NCBI GenBank assembly: GCA_003213375.1
Contig: QCNA01000014.1
Coordinates: 1-32,400 of the forward strand
Length of the DNA stretch: 32,400 nucleotides
Direction: 5' to 3'
Origin: Prochlorococcus sp. AG-424-A03
GTDB taxonomy: Bacteria; Cyanobacteriota; Cyanobacteriia; PCC-6307; Cyanobiaceae
In this document: one piece after another, positions 16,232 through 20,027 of the stretch
Layout: each line of letters opens with the position of its first letter
Numbering within the stretch: the stretch's first letter is position 1
The notes under the pieces: generated by a model
What the model was told of the DNA's origin: nothing
Databases searched by the model: none
What the model saw: only the letters and a program-made list of their open reading frames with translations
Program-made: the position numbers and the translations under genes

Positions 16232-16675
16232 ATGGAAACAAAAAACTCAATATCTATAAAGCGCTCAATAGCTATTAAAGCTGTAGTTACACCAACTTGG
16301 AAGGAAGATGCTGAAAAAGAATTAAGTAAAGCAATTTCAAACATTGATCAGCAATTATCGCAACTGGAGCAAGAGGGGCAACAAATAGTAAATAATATTA
16401 GATCCCAATCGGTTAATCCCCTAGATCCAAGAGTTCAAGAACAGGTTAGTCAGGTGCAACAACAAGTCGCAGCAAAACGAAATGAAATTGAAGAACAAAA
16501 AAGAAATCTTCTTCAACAACAGAGTCAAGTTCGCGAATTAAAAATGGACGAAATTGTTGATCAAGGGCAAATGGATAGTTTCTGTGATGTCACTGTGGGA
16601 GACAATCTAATTGAAAAAATGCAAGTATCGATTACGGTTAAGGATGGAGTTATTCAATCTATAGATAATAATTAA
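16232..16675 (+). CDS. YlqD family protein
   Basis: A 147-residue protein with an N-terminal strand-forming part (SIKRSIAIKAVVTPTWK), a long Gln/Glu-rich coiled coil (about residues 25-105: ISNIDQQLSQLEQEGQQIV and VQQQVAAKRNEIEEQKRNLL) and a C-terminal beta domain (FCDVTVGDNL, QVSITVKDGVIQSI). This is the YlqD arrangement found in cyanobacteria and Firmicutes; its function is not established. It ends the core-gene run before the accessory island. A loose inverted repeat (AAGATTTA 16680-16687 with TAAATCTT 16708-16715, 20-nt loop) follows the stop and could be a weak terminator. Confidence 0.85.
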   Translation: METKNSISIKRSIAIKAVVTPTWKEDAEKELSKAISNIDQQLSQLEQEGQQIVNNIRSQSVNPLDPRVQEQVSQVQQQVAAKRNEIEEQKRNLLQQQSQVRELKMDEIVDQGQMDSFCDVTVGDNLIEKMQVSITVKDGVIQSIDNN

Positions 16676-16750
16676 AGAGAAGATTTAGTATTTTTGATAA
16701 ATATAAGTAAATCTTAATTTCGAAAAGTTTTAAATTCTAATCGATCTAAA

Positions 16751-16892
16751 TTATTACTTTCTTAAGTTTTAAGAGTTCCCACTGTGAACATGATTTCGTA
16801 TAATTAAAACAAGAGTTTAAAGGGTTCTTAACCATAAAAACTTTAGGAAGTTTGGTAGAAATCCCTTGAAACTTATGCAATAACAATTTTCT
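16751..16892 (+). promoter_or_regulatory. Stranded copy of the pdhC promoter and leader
   Basis: Aligned with the true pdhC upstream region: TTATTACTTTCTTAA (16751-16765) equals 18514-18528, TTCCC (16776-16780) equals 18539-18543, and GTATAATTAAA (16798-16808) equals 18561-18571, with no gap between these blocks. The TATAAT box is at 16799-16804, and the distance to the ATG is 90 bases here against 93 in the pdhC copy. Downstream it leads only into the peptide MSHEILRP followed by a stop, so any transcript would be non-productive or a small RNA. It may be the original pdhC promoter, now separated from its gene. Confidence 0.6.
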
Positions 16893-16910
16893 TATGTCTC
16901 ACGAAATATT
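16893..16910. repeat. 18-bp direct repeat, left copy (attL-like)
   Basis: TATGTCTCACGAAATATT is identical to 18659-18676, where it forms the pdhC start codon and first codons. The sequences diverge completely just after it. In this copy the following bases create an inverted repeat GTCTCA (16896-16901), 8-nt spacer, TGAGAC (16910-16915), a shape like a tyrosine-recombinase core site. Confidence 0.65.
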
Positions 16911-17105
16911 GAGACCTTAGTAAAACTAAACGTTCTTGGTCTGTAGACATCATTTAGACACTAAAGACTAATAATTATAGTTCCAGTTATTCTCTATAGT
17001 CTTGCCTTCTTCAATAGACAGATAAGTAGACATTTGCTTATGAGTGAATACGAGTAATCAACAATAACCCTATGCTTATGTTTTGTTAGGAATCAGATGT
17101 AGAAA

Positions 17106-17753
17106 TTAAGCATACTTAATTGAACAATTAATTCCATCATGATCACTATTATTTTCAGTTGAAATTCTCCTTACGCTTTCTGCCTTTAAGTCATTTGAAA
17201 TAACTATGTGAATAAGACCAAGATTTGTAGTCAATAAATTAAATCCATCGATCATATTTTGTAAAGAAGAAAATACTATTTCCGGTTGATTCTTTTTCGG
17301 AATATTCTGATTAAAATCTCCAAGAATAATAGTTTTCTCATTTGAAAAACTTAAATTTTGAATAAAAGAGAGATGATCCTCCCATGGTTTACGATCTTTT
17401 CTCCCTGTGCTTACGTGGGCAAATCTCCATGGAATGCAAAGACCAACAATTTTGATTCCTTTTGTTAAACCTGATATAAATCTCCCTGTTGGGATTTCCT
17501 TTGAACCTATTTGATTAACGTCAGTCCATTTATCTTTTGACCAAAGGATTACCTTCCTACGTCCATTTTTGGTTTTATAACCATAATCCTCATGAGAAGA
17601 AATAATATATCCATCTTTTGGGAGCAAATTCTCGTATCCTTCTGTAAGACAGATAATATCAGAATCAAATTGATCAATAAAAAATTTACCTCTCTTGGAT
17701 GTAGGAGTTGCCCAATCTGAATTCCAACAAGATATTTTTAATGATGAATCCAA
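17106..17753 (-). CDS. Endonuclease/exonuclease/phosphatase (EEP) superfamily protein
   Basis: A 215-residue protein with EEP landmarks: KISCWNSDW at the start (usual WN motif), CLTEGY with metal-ligand E38, ILGDFNQN with D146 and N148, and NSDHDGI with D204/H205. It has no signal peptide, so it acts in the cytosol; DNA, RNA or a phospho-ester are possible substrates. The Asp normally found before the last strand (usually IDxI) appears as Ile in LIHIVIS, so catalysis may be altered. It follows the GIY-YIG gene by 16 bases in the same direction and is presumably in one operon. It is not part of the core gene set I associate with this locus. Confidence 0.7.
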   Translation of the reverse strand: MDSSLKISCWNSDWATPTSKRGKFFIDQFDSDIICLTEGYENLLPKDGYIISSHEDYGYKTKNGRRKVILWSKDKWTDVNQIGSKEIPTGRFISGLTKGIKIVGLCIPWRFAHVSTGRKDRKPWEDHLSFIQNLSFSNEKTIILGDFNQNIPKKNQPEIVFSSLQNMIDGFNLLTTNLGLIHIVISNDLKAESVRRISTENNSDHDGINCSIKYA

Positions 17754-17769
17754 CTTGTAAAGTTCCTAT

Positions 17770-18378
17770 TTAATCAAAGGAATAAGTTTCGTTATAGATA
17801 TCTTGTAAATTTTTTCCATTGTAATACCAATAAGGAGCACCATGCATTGGACCAGTTCTATCCAATAATTTGTTCGTAAGGTTTGAGAGGAACCAAGATT
17901 CTCCTCCATAAGAAACTTGTCTAGCATTCAAAATTGTACAGACTTCCTCATTCCTTCCAAACTTTAAAATATCTCCTTCTTTTAGACCCATTTCGAAGAA
18001 GTTTTGATTTGGACGCCTTTTTTTCTTGAATTTTTCCGCCGATGCAGTTGCTTCAAGATCGATTTTTTTTGCTTCGTCTTGAACACTTGGTGTAACATCT
18101 TCAATTGCCATTAGTGATAAAACAGCAATTGCCTGTTCTGGGTTGATATTAAAAAACTCTCTTTTTGGGTTAACTCTGCTTGGTTCAAATGCTGTATGAA
18201 ATGCTTTTTCTGTTTTATCTACATCTTTCACTTTCGCTGCATATTCACATTCAAAAGGTAACGGCACACCAGTTGAATATAAGTCAGCAAGTCTAAGTTC
18301 TACATCTCTTGTCGTCTTACCAATCTTTACCATGTTAGGCATTGCTGGATTAGTTAAAACGTAAACACTTCCTTCCAT
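17770..18378 (-). CDS. GIY-YIG nuclease (T5orf172) with C-terminal DUF4357-like domain
   Basis: Residues 1-85 match the T5orf172/MUG113 branch of GIY-YIG nucleases: VYVLTNPAMPNMVKIGKTT, R29, STGVPLPFECEYAAKV, E57 in KTEKAFH, and RVNPKREFF. Residues 90-125 are a charged linker with KKKRRP. Residues 126-200 (GLKEGDILKF, VSYGGESWFLSNLTNKLL, PYWYYNGKNL) resemble DUF4357, a domain often found with restriction or modification proteins. The predicted role is sequence-specific DNA cutting, possibly defence; the substrate is unknown. It is the first gene of a two-nuclease unit inside the putative element. No good ribosome-binding site precedes the ATG at 18378. Confidence 0.75.
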   Translation of the reverse strand: MEGSVYVLTNPAMPNMVKIGKTTRDVELRLADLYSTGVPLPFECEYAAKVKDVDKTEKAFHTAFEPSRVNPKREFFNINPEQAIAVLSLMAIEDVTPSVQDEAKKIDLEATASAEKFKKKRRPNQNFFEMGLKEGDILKFGRNEEVCTILNARQVSYGGESWFLSNLTNKLLDRTGPMHGAPYWYYNGKNLQDIYNETYSFD

Positions 18379-18513
18379 AAATGTAAAATCAGAATTTTCT
18401 AAATTAATTCAATAATCTTTCAATTAATCTTATATCCCCTGTCAATAAACAATAATTAGTAATTAATACTTTATCTAAATTCCCTCTAACCCGCCTGTAA
18501 ATCTATACCCTAT

Positions 18514-18571
18514 TTATTACTTTCTTAATCTTCTTGTATTCCCCTAAGTTACATACCTTTGTATAATTAAA
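18514..18571 (+). promoter_or_regulatory. pdhC promoter
   Basis: TATAAT at 18562-18567 is a perfect -10 box. An exact 15-mer TTATTACTTTCTTAA (18514-18528) and TTCCC at the -35 position (18539-18543, 18 bases before TATAAT) are conserved in the stranded copy at 16751-16808. Conservation at identical spacing suggests both are functional sites, with the 15-mer being an activator site or UP-like element. No good TTGACA is present. Confidence 0.6.
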
Positions 18572-18601
18572 TTATCAAGTGAATGGGTGTTCAAACGTCA
18601 A

Positions 18602-18617
18602 GAAGTGTAGACACTTC
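18602..18617. promoter_or_regulatory. Perfect 16-bp palindrome in the pdhC leader
   Basis: GAAGTGT (18602-18608), AG, ACACTTC (18611-18617) is a perfect dyad. It lies about 35 bases after the -10 box and 43 before the pdhC ATG, so it is transcribed. It could be a repressor operator or an RNA hairpin. It is absent from the stranded left promoter copy. Confidence 0.45.
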
Positions 18618-18658
18618 CGTAGACACCACGTCCAAAACCCTTGCAAACACTAACCTGC

Positions 18659-18676
18659 TATGTCTCACGAAATATT
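18659..18676. repeat. 18-bp direct repeat, right copy (attR-like)
   Basis: TATGTCTCACGAAATATT, identical to 16893-16910. Here it covers the last leader base, the pdhC start codon and the codons for Met-Ser-His-Glu-Ile. Confidence 0.65.
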
Positions 18677-20027
18677 CATGCCTGCCTTGAGTTCTACTAT
18701 GACAGAGGGCAAGATTGTGGAATGGTTGAAAAATCCAGGAGATAAAGTTGAAAGAGGTGAATCTGTCTTGGTTGTTGAATCTGACAAGGCAGATATGGAT
18801 GTTGAATCTTTTCAAGATGGATATCTTGCAGCTGTTTTAATGCCCGCTGGCAGCACTGCACCAGTGGGAGAGACTATCGGTCTTATTGTAGAAAATGAGG
18901 ATGAGATAGCTTCTGTTCAAGAACAAAATAAAGGAAAACAACCCGAAGTTTCTAGTTCGGATCAACTTGAATTGGTAAGCAATAAAACGGAAGAAAAACC
19001 TGAAGTTCAAAGTGAAATTGTTGAAAAAAAAGAAAAAGAAGTTGTATTAATGAGTGAAAAGGCAGCCCCATCTTTCAGTAGCGATCAAATAAATGCTGCT
19101 ACGAGTAATGTTTCTTCGAGGGTGATTGCATCTCCAAGAGCTAAAAAACTTGCCTCTCAAATGGGTGTTGATTTAGCAAAGGTTCATGGATCCGGACCTC
19201 ACGGAAGGATTCAAGCCGATGATATTTTAAAAGCTAATGGCCAACCAGTCTCTATACCATGGATAGGTGAAGGTGGTTCTCCTGCAAGTGTACCTGGTGC
19301 AAATTTGGGAGTTGAAAGTAAACCAGAAACTTCAGGAAATAGTTTTGGTAATCCCGGAGAAACAGTTCAATTTAATACTCTTCAAAAAGCGGTAAATAAA
19401 AATATGGAATCTAGTTTAGATGTGCCATGTTTTAGGGTGGGTTATTCCATTAACACAGATAAATTAGATAATTTCTACAAAAAAGTAAAACAGAACGGAG
19501 TTACTATGACTGCTTTACTAGTAAAGGCAGTTGCAAAGACACTAAAGAAACATCCTCAAGTTAACTCAAGTTTTTCAGAAAATGGAATTTCTTATCCAGA
19601 AAATATAAATATTGCTGTTGCTGTTGCGATGGAAGATGGTGGACTAATAACTCCAGTTTTGAAAGAACCATGCAATACTGATTTATTTGAATTGTCTAGG
19701 GAATGGAAAGATCTCGTAAAAAGATCAAGATCAAAACAATTAGAACCTGATGAATACTCAACAGGAACTTTCACTTTATCTAACCTTGGAATGTTTGGCG
19801 TTGATAGATTTGACGCAATTCTTCCTCCAGGTACCGGTGCTATTTTAGCCATAGCATCATCGAAACCAACCGTTGTTGCTAATAGTGATGGTTCAATATC
19901 TGTTAAAAAAATAATGCAAGTAAATCTAACAGCTGATCATAGAGTGATCTACGGAGCTGATGGAGCTTCATTCTTAAAAGACTTGGCTTCCCTAATTGAA
20001 GATGAGCCAGAGACTCTTGTCTCCTAA
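18660..20027 (+). CDS. pdhC: Pyruvate dehydrogenase E2 (dihydrolipoamide acetyltransferase)
   Basis: Core of the pyruvate dehydrogenase complex; moves acetyl groups from E1 via a lipoyl arm to CoA. The single N-terminal lipoyl domain has K43 in ESDKADMDVE as the lipoylation site. An acidic/Lys-rich linker (about 80-150) follows, then the peripheral-subunit-binding domain with ASPRAKKLASQMGVDL and GSGPHGRI. The catalytic domain ends in LTADHRVIYGADGASFL with the active-site His427. The 455 aa length and the DHRVIYGADG form match cyanobacterial and plastid E2. The first 17 bases of the gene form part of the direct repeat, so an insertion here could leave the protein unchanged. queA follows after 6 bases. 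Confidence 0.94.
   Translation: MSHEIFMPALSSTMTEGKIVEWLKNPGDKVERGESVLVVESDKADMDVESFQDGYLAAVLMPAGSTAPVGETIGLIVENEDEIASVQEQNKGKQPEVSSSDQLELVSNKTEEKPEVQSEIVEKKEKEVVLMSEKAAPSFSSDQINAATSNVSSRVIASPRAKKLASQMGVDLAKVHGSGPHGRIQADDILKANGQPVSIPWIGEGGSPASVPGANLGVESKPETSGNSFGNPGETVQFNTLQKAVNKNMESSLDVPCFRVGYSINTDKLDNFYKKVKQNGVTMTALLVKAVAKTLKKHPQVNSSFSENGISYPENINIAVAVAMEDGGLITPVLKEPCNTDLFELSREWKDLVKRSRSKQLEPDEYSTGTFTLSNLGMFGVDRFDAILPPGTGAILAIASSKPTVVANSDGSISVKKIMQVNLTADHRVIYGADGASFLKDLASLIEDEPETLVS

Follow-up and report, generated by a model that had tools for sequence, protein, structure and literature searches.

Evidence for a recombinase-less integrative element at the 5' end of pdhC in Prochlorococcus

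Introduction

Why should two nuclease genes stand between exact 18-bp direct repeats immediately before pdhC, the gene for the pyruvate dehydrogenase E2 component, with one of the repeats running over its start codon? The question is raised by a stretch of 32,400 nt from Prochlorococcus sp. AG-424-A03 (the window; its genome has the handle G000), in which TATGTCTCACGAAATATT occurs at positions 16893–16910 and again at 18659–18676. Taken as a whole, the evidence is best explained by a site-specifically integrated element without a recombinase (16893–18658) at the 5' end of pdhC, an explanation that we regard as very probable; its mobilisation in trans by relatives is probable. A preliminary description, made from the window alone, had proposed an integrative element that uses and restores the 5' end of pdhC; the empty sites, the seven occupied sites and the foreign leader described below all support that proposal.

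The insertion and its empty site

The inserted segment is 1766 bp long. Both copies of the 18-mer are exact, as first described, and the window has no third site even when three mismatches are allowed; shuffled sequences contained 0.07 sites on average, and none of 100 shuffles contained two. The right copy does include the pdhC ATG (18660), and the two genes lying between ylqD and pdhC, both on the minus strand, match nuclease families, one the endonuclease/exonuclease/phosphatase (EEP) family (PF03372) and the other the T5orf172/GIY-YIG family (PF10544). The preliminary description also held everything between the repeats to be foreign to the locus, which stands for the two cargo genes and fails for the ∼145 bp that lead up to the right copy (18514–18658), a diverged homologue of the pdhC leader, so that the segment is not wholly foreign to pdhC. 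The features of the locus are as follows.

16232–16675, plus strand: ylqD, the left core neighbour (PF11068, E 2e-36), upstream of pdhC in all 79 genomes in which the interval was measured
16676–16892, plus strand: native pdhC leader, now separated from pdhC; nine other loci match its last 175 nt and the start exactly, and there this sequence is continuous with pdhC
16893–16910, plus strand: left copy of the 18-mer (attL core), exact repeat
16899–16905, plus strand (18665–18671 in the right copy): TCACGAA, the putative strand-exchange segment, placed by the points at which left and right copies diverge across elements
16911–17105, plus strand: left end of the element, with arm-type TAGACA at 16944, 16955, 17015 and 17027, the first three positions kept in 7/7 elements and the fourth in some only
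17106–17753, minus strand: EEP-family gene, 215 aa (PF03372, Exo_endo_phos, E 8e-8)
17770–18378, minus strand: T5orf172 GIY-YIG nuclease gene, 202 aa (PF10544, E 2e-16), of the candidate defence family PDC-S57 (PADLOC)
18379–18658, plus strand: right end of the element, which from 18514 on is the replacement pdhC leader, homologous to the native one; it has TAGACA at 18608 and 18620 and a TATAAT 97 nt ahead of the core, as judged from identity to the element of genome G099, the leader tree and the arm offsets
18659–18676, plus strand: right copy of the 18-mer (attR core), exact repeat, with the pdhC ATG at 18660
18660–20027, plus strand: pdhC (pyruvate dehydrogenase E2), the target gene, frame intact (PF00198, E 9e-63); the top NCBIfam model of the product is TIGR01349 (E 2e-95, under its curated cut-off)

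The uninterrupted form of the site was found in relatives. Across 266 genomes of the genus (handles G; fetched stretches have handles L), the 18-mer is present at up to one mismatch in 223, and in two copies only in the window genome and G099. A PdhC search retrieved relatives, in several of which PdhC is 100% identical; there the stretch found ahead of the window's left copy continues straight into pdhC, and the empty-site gap between ylqD and pdhC in close relatives is mostly 218 bp, with a single copy of the 18-mer. This gap could be measured in 79 of 81 genomes and is shorter than 300 bp in 68, 430–481 bp in three and longer than 1000 bp in eight, a proportion that is not a frequency because the set was partly picked for matches. 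The window's native leader, at the left copy, recurs unchanged at nine other loci. Eight of these could be measured and all have the 218-bp empty gap, L107 being too short for it, and the window insertion is therefore either recent or often lost. Two marks of an integrative element, direct-repeat attachment (att) cores and an empty site in relatives, are thus both present.

Other elements at the pdhC start

At least seven of the 266 genomes have an occupied pdhC start (G000, G099, G204, G122, G151, G233 and G196), and the gene content varies among them. The relatives therefore neither share one set of genes and repeats at this place nor lack an empty site: as the preliminary description had anticipated for an integrative element, empty sites have a single 18-mer, while six further genomes have different cargo at the same point. 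Closest to the window element is that of G099, a homologous insertion of 1097 bp with both 18-mers, in which the GIY-YIG gene is present and the EEP gene absent; its left end is 84% identical to that of the window element over 133 bp and its right end 85%. Use of the right end as a DNA query over the 266 genomes found the elements of G204 (9350 bp, start to start), G122 (7605 bp) and G151 (1513 bp, encoding a different EEP-family protein and a 60-aa open reading frame (ORF)), a search with the recombinase described below found that of G233 (6831 bp), and a scan for the arm pattern that of G196 (1724 bp, with a 391-aa TPR protein). The three large elements, those of G204, G122 and G233, contain resolvase genes and DruA-like genes, the DruA match being above the cut-off only in G204. 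The G122 element also encodes (L179:3971–4708) a 245-aa protein with an HTHIY motif that recalls HUH replication proteins by eye, for which there was no convincing family match.

An eighth genome, G033 (L183:4182–5670), has a 1486-bp gap between ylqD and pdhC with ORFs of 103 and 64 aa and an element-like leader, and no left copy; it is perhaps a decayed element. No tRNA gene is present in the element loci L114, L178, L179, L182, L202 and L223, the nearest tRNA in the window being ∼13.9 kb off, and family scans of the element proteins reported no conjugation families.

Attachment site

The ends of the seven elements follow one plan. Measured from the start of the left core, TAGACA lies near +51, +62 and +122 in each of them, and on the other side near −51 and −39 relative to the right core, always within one base; these five positions are held equally in the four elements that have no recombinase (G000, G099, G151 and G196); a fourth left-hand TAGACA, near +134, is exact in some elements only. 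All 35 of the fixed slots are filled, against 0–2 in 2000 composition shuffles. Because the slots had been derived from the data, the test was repeated without fixing either motif or positions: the sole hexamer common to all seven elements at either end is TAGACA (and AGACAG, which overlaps it), and none of 500 shuffles gave any common hexamer at either end. A scan of the 266 genomes for the left-arm spacing returned seven exact matches, each of them at pdhC: the six elements that had served to define the pattern, and that of G196, which was then confirmed as an element; one single-mismatch match lay away from pdhC (G014), and the reversed control gave none. Among 70 copies of the pdhC leader (G099 is represented by both of its copies, and a few genomes are counted twice), TAGACA is absent from the 90 nt before the start in 62. 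The element thus has a putative attP with arm-type repeats at fixed positions, and the TAGACA arms presumably bind the recombinase.

The cores limit where the strands could be exchanged. Left copies in G204, G122, G151 and G196 match pdhC only through TATGTCTCACGAA and diverge after position 13, while the right copies of G122 and G233 read TATGAGTCACGAA, with differences at positions 5–6 that give a synonymous serine codon; these two genes start ATGAGT instead of ATGTCT, and the protein start MSHE is unchanged. We take the TATGAGTCACGAA version to be borne by the element. Since the left and right copies of G122 together bracket it, the exchange is placed inside the 7-bp TCACGAA, which would extend from the last base of codon 2 through codon 4.

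Recombinase of the large elements

The three large elements each encode an integrase-family protein, of 458 aa in G204, 452 aa in G122 and 442 aa in G233, from a gene that starts ∼150 bp past the start of the left copy and is oriented toward pdhC. All three match the PHROG integrase family phrog_1 (E 7e-23, 3e-22 and 4e-23, respectively); with Pfam, the G204 protein has no integrase match, that of G122 matches PF00589 below the cut-off and that of G233 the SAM-like PF13102 below the cut-off. Identity to the G204 recombinase is 85% for the G122 protein and 62% for that of G233. Matches to the recombinase were found in 14 of the 266 genomes, and the three strong ones are all at pdhC. A search of PDB sequences gave a single match (E 0.79). 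The window element itself encodes no recombinase, and because G204, G122 and G233 have integrase-family genes at the same site we file it as a non-autonomous derivative.

Leader of pdhC

The leader that now precedes pdhC in the window is only 58% identical to the native leader before the left copy. A leader tree, printed without support values, places the right ends of the G099 and window elements in one group with the G033 leader, apart from the native leaders. A motif search finds a TATAAT-like box 95–107 nt before the core in the right leaders of six of the seven elements; statements on TATAAT rest on this search, a consensus promoter scan having given fewer sites than shuffles. The element supplies a new 5' end and leader in the manner of the dusA-like islands, and pdhC would be transcribed from the imported leader. 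Leaders also change without insertion, because G155 (L180) and G116 (L181) combine an empty pdhC site with an element-like leader, 87% identical over the part homologous to the pdhC leader, and with other upstream sequence. The native leaders of G099, G204 and G122 also look as if they were derived from an earlier element.

Cargo nucleases

The GIY-YIG protein matches PADLOC PDC-S57 over almost its full length (E 4.8e-77, residues 2–200 of 202) and, more weakly, the C-terminal part of PD-Lambda-1. The latter has been renamed SNIPE and is a membrane-bound nuclease whose GIY-YIG catalytic residue is required against phage lambda (PMC13190303). For the window protein, a role in defence is a lead only. 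Ratios of non-synonymous to synonymous substitution (dN/dS) are 0.05–0.18 for the GIY-YIG gene (nine comparisons) and 0.10–0.28 for the EEP gene (four comparisons), and both genes look to be under purifying selection. The GIY-YIG gene has matches in 28 of the 266 genomes (E 0.001) in varied surroundings. Homologues of the nucleases elsewhere in the genus mostly align over the genes and not the flanks, the closest, in G048, being 93.8% identical over both genes, after which similarity ends. The nuclease genes recur in islands as nearly start-to-stop blocks without common flanks, even at 93.8% identity (L118:910–2182 among others). A scan of viral contigs for the GIY-YIG protein gave no confirmed relative, and in phage records the GIY-YIG matches are all below 60% identity (103 records).

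Integration model and alternative explanations

In the model that we favour, a recombinase supplied in trans by full-size relatives that use the same site would act on the 5' end of pdhC as attB, exchanging strands within TCACGAA. The window element would hold a complete attP, with the core and TAGACA arms on both sides, and its right end would bring its own pdhC leader and start codon; because it carries these, integration could swap the 5' end of pdhC yet keep the frame. The cargo would be exchangeable, here comprising two nucleases, one of the EEP family and one a GIY-YIG protein from a candidate family of phage defence. Mobilisation in trans, already raised in the preliminary description, becomes more plausible with the finding of full-size relatives that occupy this site and encode an integrase-family protein, and with the retention of their arm repeats in the window element, and on this basis we think it probable; what has been found is the relatives and their shared repeats, from which mobilisation itself is deduced.

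Several observations weigh against the model. The recombinase was not found in the window genome assembly, which is 64% complete, although the Pfam model is a weak detector that misses the G204 protein too, and no relative of the recombinase was confirmed, and neither element junction found, in scans of viral contigs. The residues R248, K282, R396 and Y428 fit what we take to be the catalytic pattern of tyrosine recombinases, an assignment made by eye, and an AlphaFold model of the recombinase (three sequences) is poor, with a mean predicted local distance difference test score (pLDDT) of 38.9; scores of 61–83 are reached only in the N-terminal 60 residues, which form four strands and a helix. 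The shuffle controls on the arms take no account of descent among the elements, such as that suggested by the 84–85% identity of the window and G099 ends. Nor is the right-arm pair element-specific: the native left leaders of G099 (L114) and G204 (L178) carry TAGACA at −50/−38 and that of G122 (L179) has one copy, so that the pair may have belonged to some pdhC leaders before or after visits by elements. Inverted repeats in the core, expected for a tyrosine recombinase, looked promising at first, but the shuffle control places them at chance level in six of the seven elements (the best in the window being reached in 115/200 shuffles); they stand out only in G196 (4/200). As to the imported promoter, the right leader of G233 has no TATAAT-like box within 200 nt, and the consensus promoter scan lists the native leader of the window and not the imported one.

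It is possible, though we think it rather unlikely, that the window element is a dead relic, which integrated once with its own recombinase, lost it and is now simply inherited. Neither the element nor, as far as was found, the assembly has a recombinase, the fourth TAGACA varies between elements, and G033 has apparently lost its left copy entirely. Against a relic stand the five arm positions, held within one base in all four recombinase-less elements, and the cargo ORFs, which are intact and look selected; the emptiness of all eight measured loci with the identical left leader points to an insertion that is recent or often lost. Alternatively, homologous or illegitimate recombination might have duplicated the 5' region of pdhC together with foreign cargo, with no site-specific recombinase involved, in keeping with the homology of the right end to the pdhC leader and with G155 and G116, whose element-like leaders without insertion indicate that leaders do move by recombination. 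We rejected plain duplication by homologous recombination on the integrase-family genes at the same site in three genomes and on the arm repeats, which follow one plan across seven elements of differing cargo; the left junction is moreover confined to the same few bases, and duplication is in our view improbable.

Homing of the GIY-YIG gene, in which its product would cut the pdhC start and the gene be copied in by repair, is more improbable still. GIY-YIG proteins include homing nucleases, and the gene is scattered over its 28 genomes. Homing was rejected because the nuclease is not constant among the elements, the GIY-YIG gene being in only two of the seven and missing in the other five from the ORF lists and the genus search matches. 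Where GIY-YIG places can be compared with those listed for pdhC, the two adjoin each other in the window and G099 alone; homing also leaves the 18-bp duplication and the arm repeats unexplained. A chimera of assembly or amplification might be suspected in a genome as fragmentary as that of the window (57 contigs), but the independent genome G099 has the same junctions and five others the same plan, which refutes the idea for the family and leaves it barely credible for the window. Site-specific integration of a recombinase-less element, probably mobilised from relatives, is therefore retained as the preferred explanation.

A second target: the EVE-domain gene

Besides the three strong matches, 11 of the 14 matching genomes have weaker relatives of the recombinase, mostly 36–44% identical over ∼55 aa; comparison of profiles between these distant relatives and the pdhC-site recombinase gave a probability of 98.3 over 398 aligned columns. 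They were considered as tRNA-site elements and rejected as such, there being no tRNA around eight loci or in wider stretches around six. Instead, the truncated start of an EVE-domain gene lies upstream of the recombinase in seven of the eight fetched loci, the exception being L210 (G137); the intact gene, in L208, matches PF01878 (E 2.6e-52). Among 18 EVE starts from seven genomes, repeat pairs 11 bp apart are found at +67/+78 in eight and at −57/−46 in seven (one of them at −58/−47), with one start carrying both pairs and four carrying none; the paired repeats exist in two sequence versions at identical positions. Judged from these sequences, related recombinases use the 5' end of the EVE-domain gene as at pdhC. 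Repeated truncated EVE starts with recombinases and paired arm repeats are seen at L208:3992 and 9627 and in L230, L229, L227, L236 and L238, and in the EVE-site element of G044 (L203:2336–4977) genes for a type I restriction-modification methylase and specificity subunit lie directly behind the recombinase.

Copies of the EVE start were counted in 116 genomes, those at least 85% complete together with that of the window. At up to three mismatches the start is present in 105 of the 116, with at least two same-strand copies in 53, at least three in 21 and a maximum of five, counts that are raw matches and include a few copies on different contigs. We are evenly divided on a broader proposal, that Prochlorococcus harbours a class of integrative elements in which related recombinases target the 5' ends of protein genes (pdhC and the EVE gene so far), each element with a replacement leader and start. 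Recombinase-less riders with an intact attP would ferry defence genes, tandem pile-up at the EVE site would build an island in roughly one in two of the more complete genomes, and elements at the pdhC site would repeatedly rewrite the promoter of pyruvate dehydrogenase.

Comparison with known systems

Prochlorococcus is the most abundant photosynthetic genus, and the results provide a precise map of an attachment site for its mobile DNA, with core, arm positions and a candidate recombinase. They suggest that elements of as little as 1.1 kb can depend on larger ones as riders. They also indicate a route other than tRNA genes by which genomic islands of Prochlorococcus may grow, and should the imported leaders be active, a central metabolic gene is repeatedly having its promoter replaced by mobile DNA. 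Among the matches listed from open-literature titles and abstract openings, there was no description of Prochlorococcus elements at pdhC or at the EVE gene.

Genomic islands associated with dusA replace the 5' end of their target gene (PMC4482086). Like the pdhC elements they provide a new 5' end for the target, and they differ in target gene, in hosts and in their associated integrase, which the window element is without. The integrative and conjugative elements of the SXT/R391 family are inserted by an integrase into the 5' end of prfC (PMC4344509) and are ∼100 kb long and conjugative (PMC2654960). As with the pdhC elements, a conserved protein gene is entered at its 5' end by means of an integrase; the difference lies in their large size and in conjugation. 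SXT supplies a new start for prfC. The phage-like SpyCI islands enter the 5' end of mutL, and in one strain the promoter of a decayed island rescues the gene (PMC3430984, PMC4689407); SpyCI blocks mutL while integrated, whereas the right end of the pdhC elements carries a leader homologous to the native one. None of the host recombination functions that were tested accounted for excision of the microcin H47 island (PMC5426353), and this island likewise is small, has short direct repeats and lacks a recombinase of its own, but the pdhC elements have recombinase-bearing relatives with the same plan of ends.

Nearest in host are the tycheposons of Prochlorococcus, which sit at seven tRNA genes (PMC10872708). 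They are tyrosine-recombinase elements of the same genus with exchangeable cargo, and the pdhC elements were not filed with them since the target is a protein gene, pdhC, in place of a tRNA gene, and it is the target site that sets them apart. Islands that replace the 5' end of a gene are therefore already known as a type, of which the elements at the pdhC start in Prochlorococcus would be a variant.

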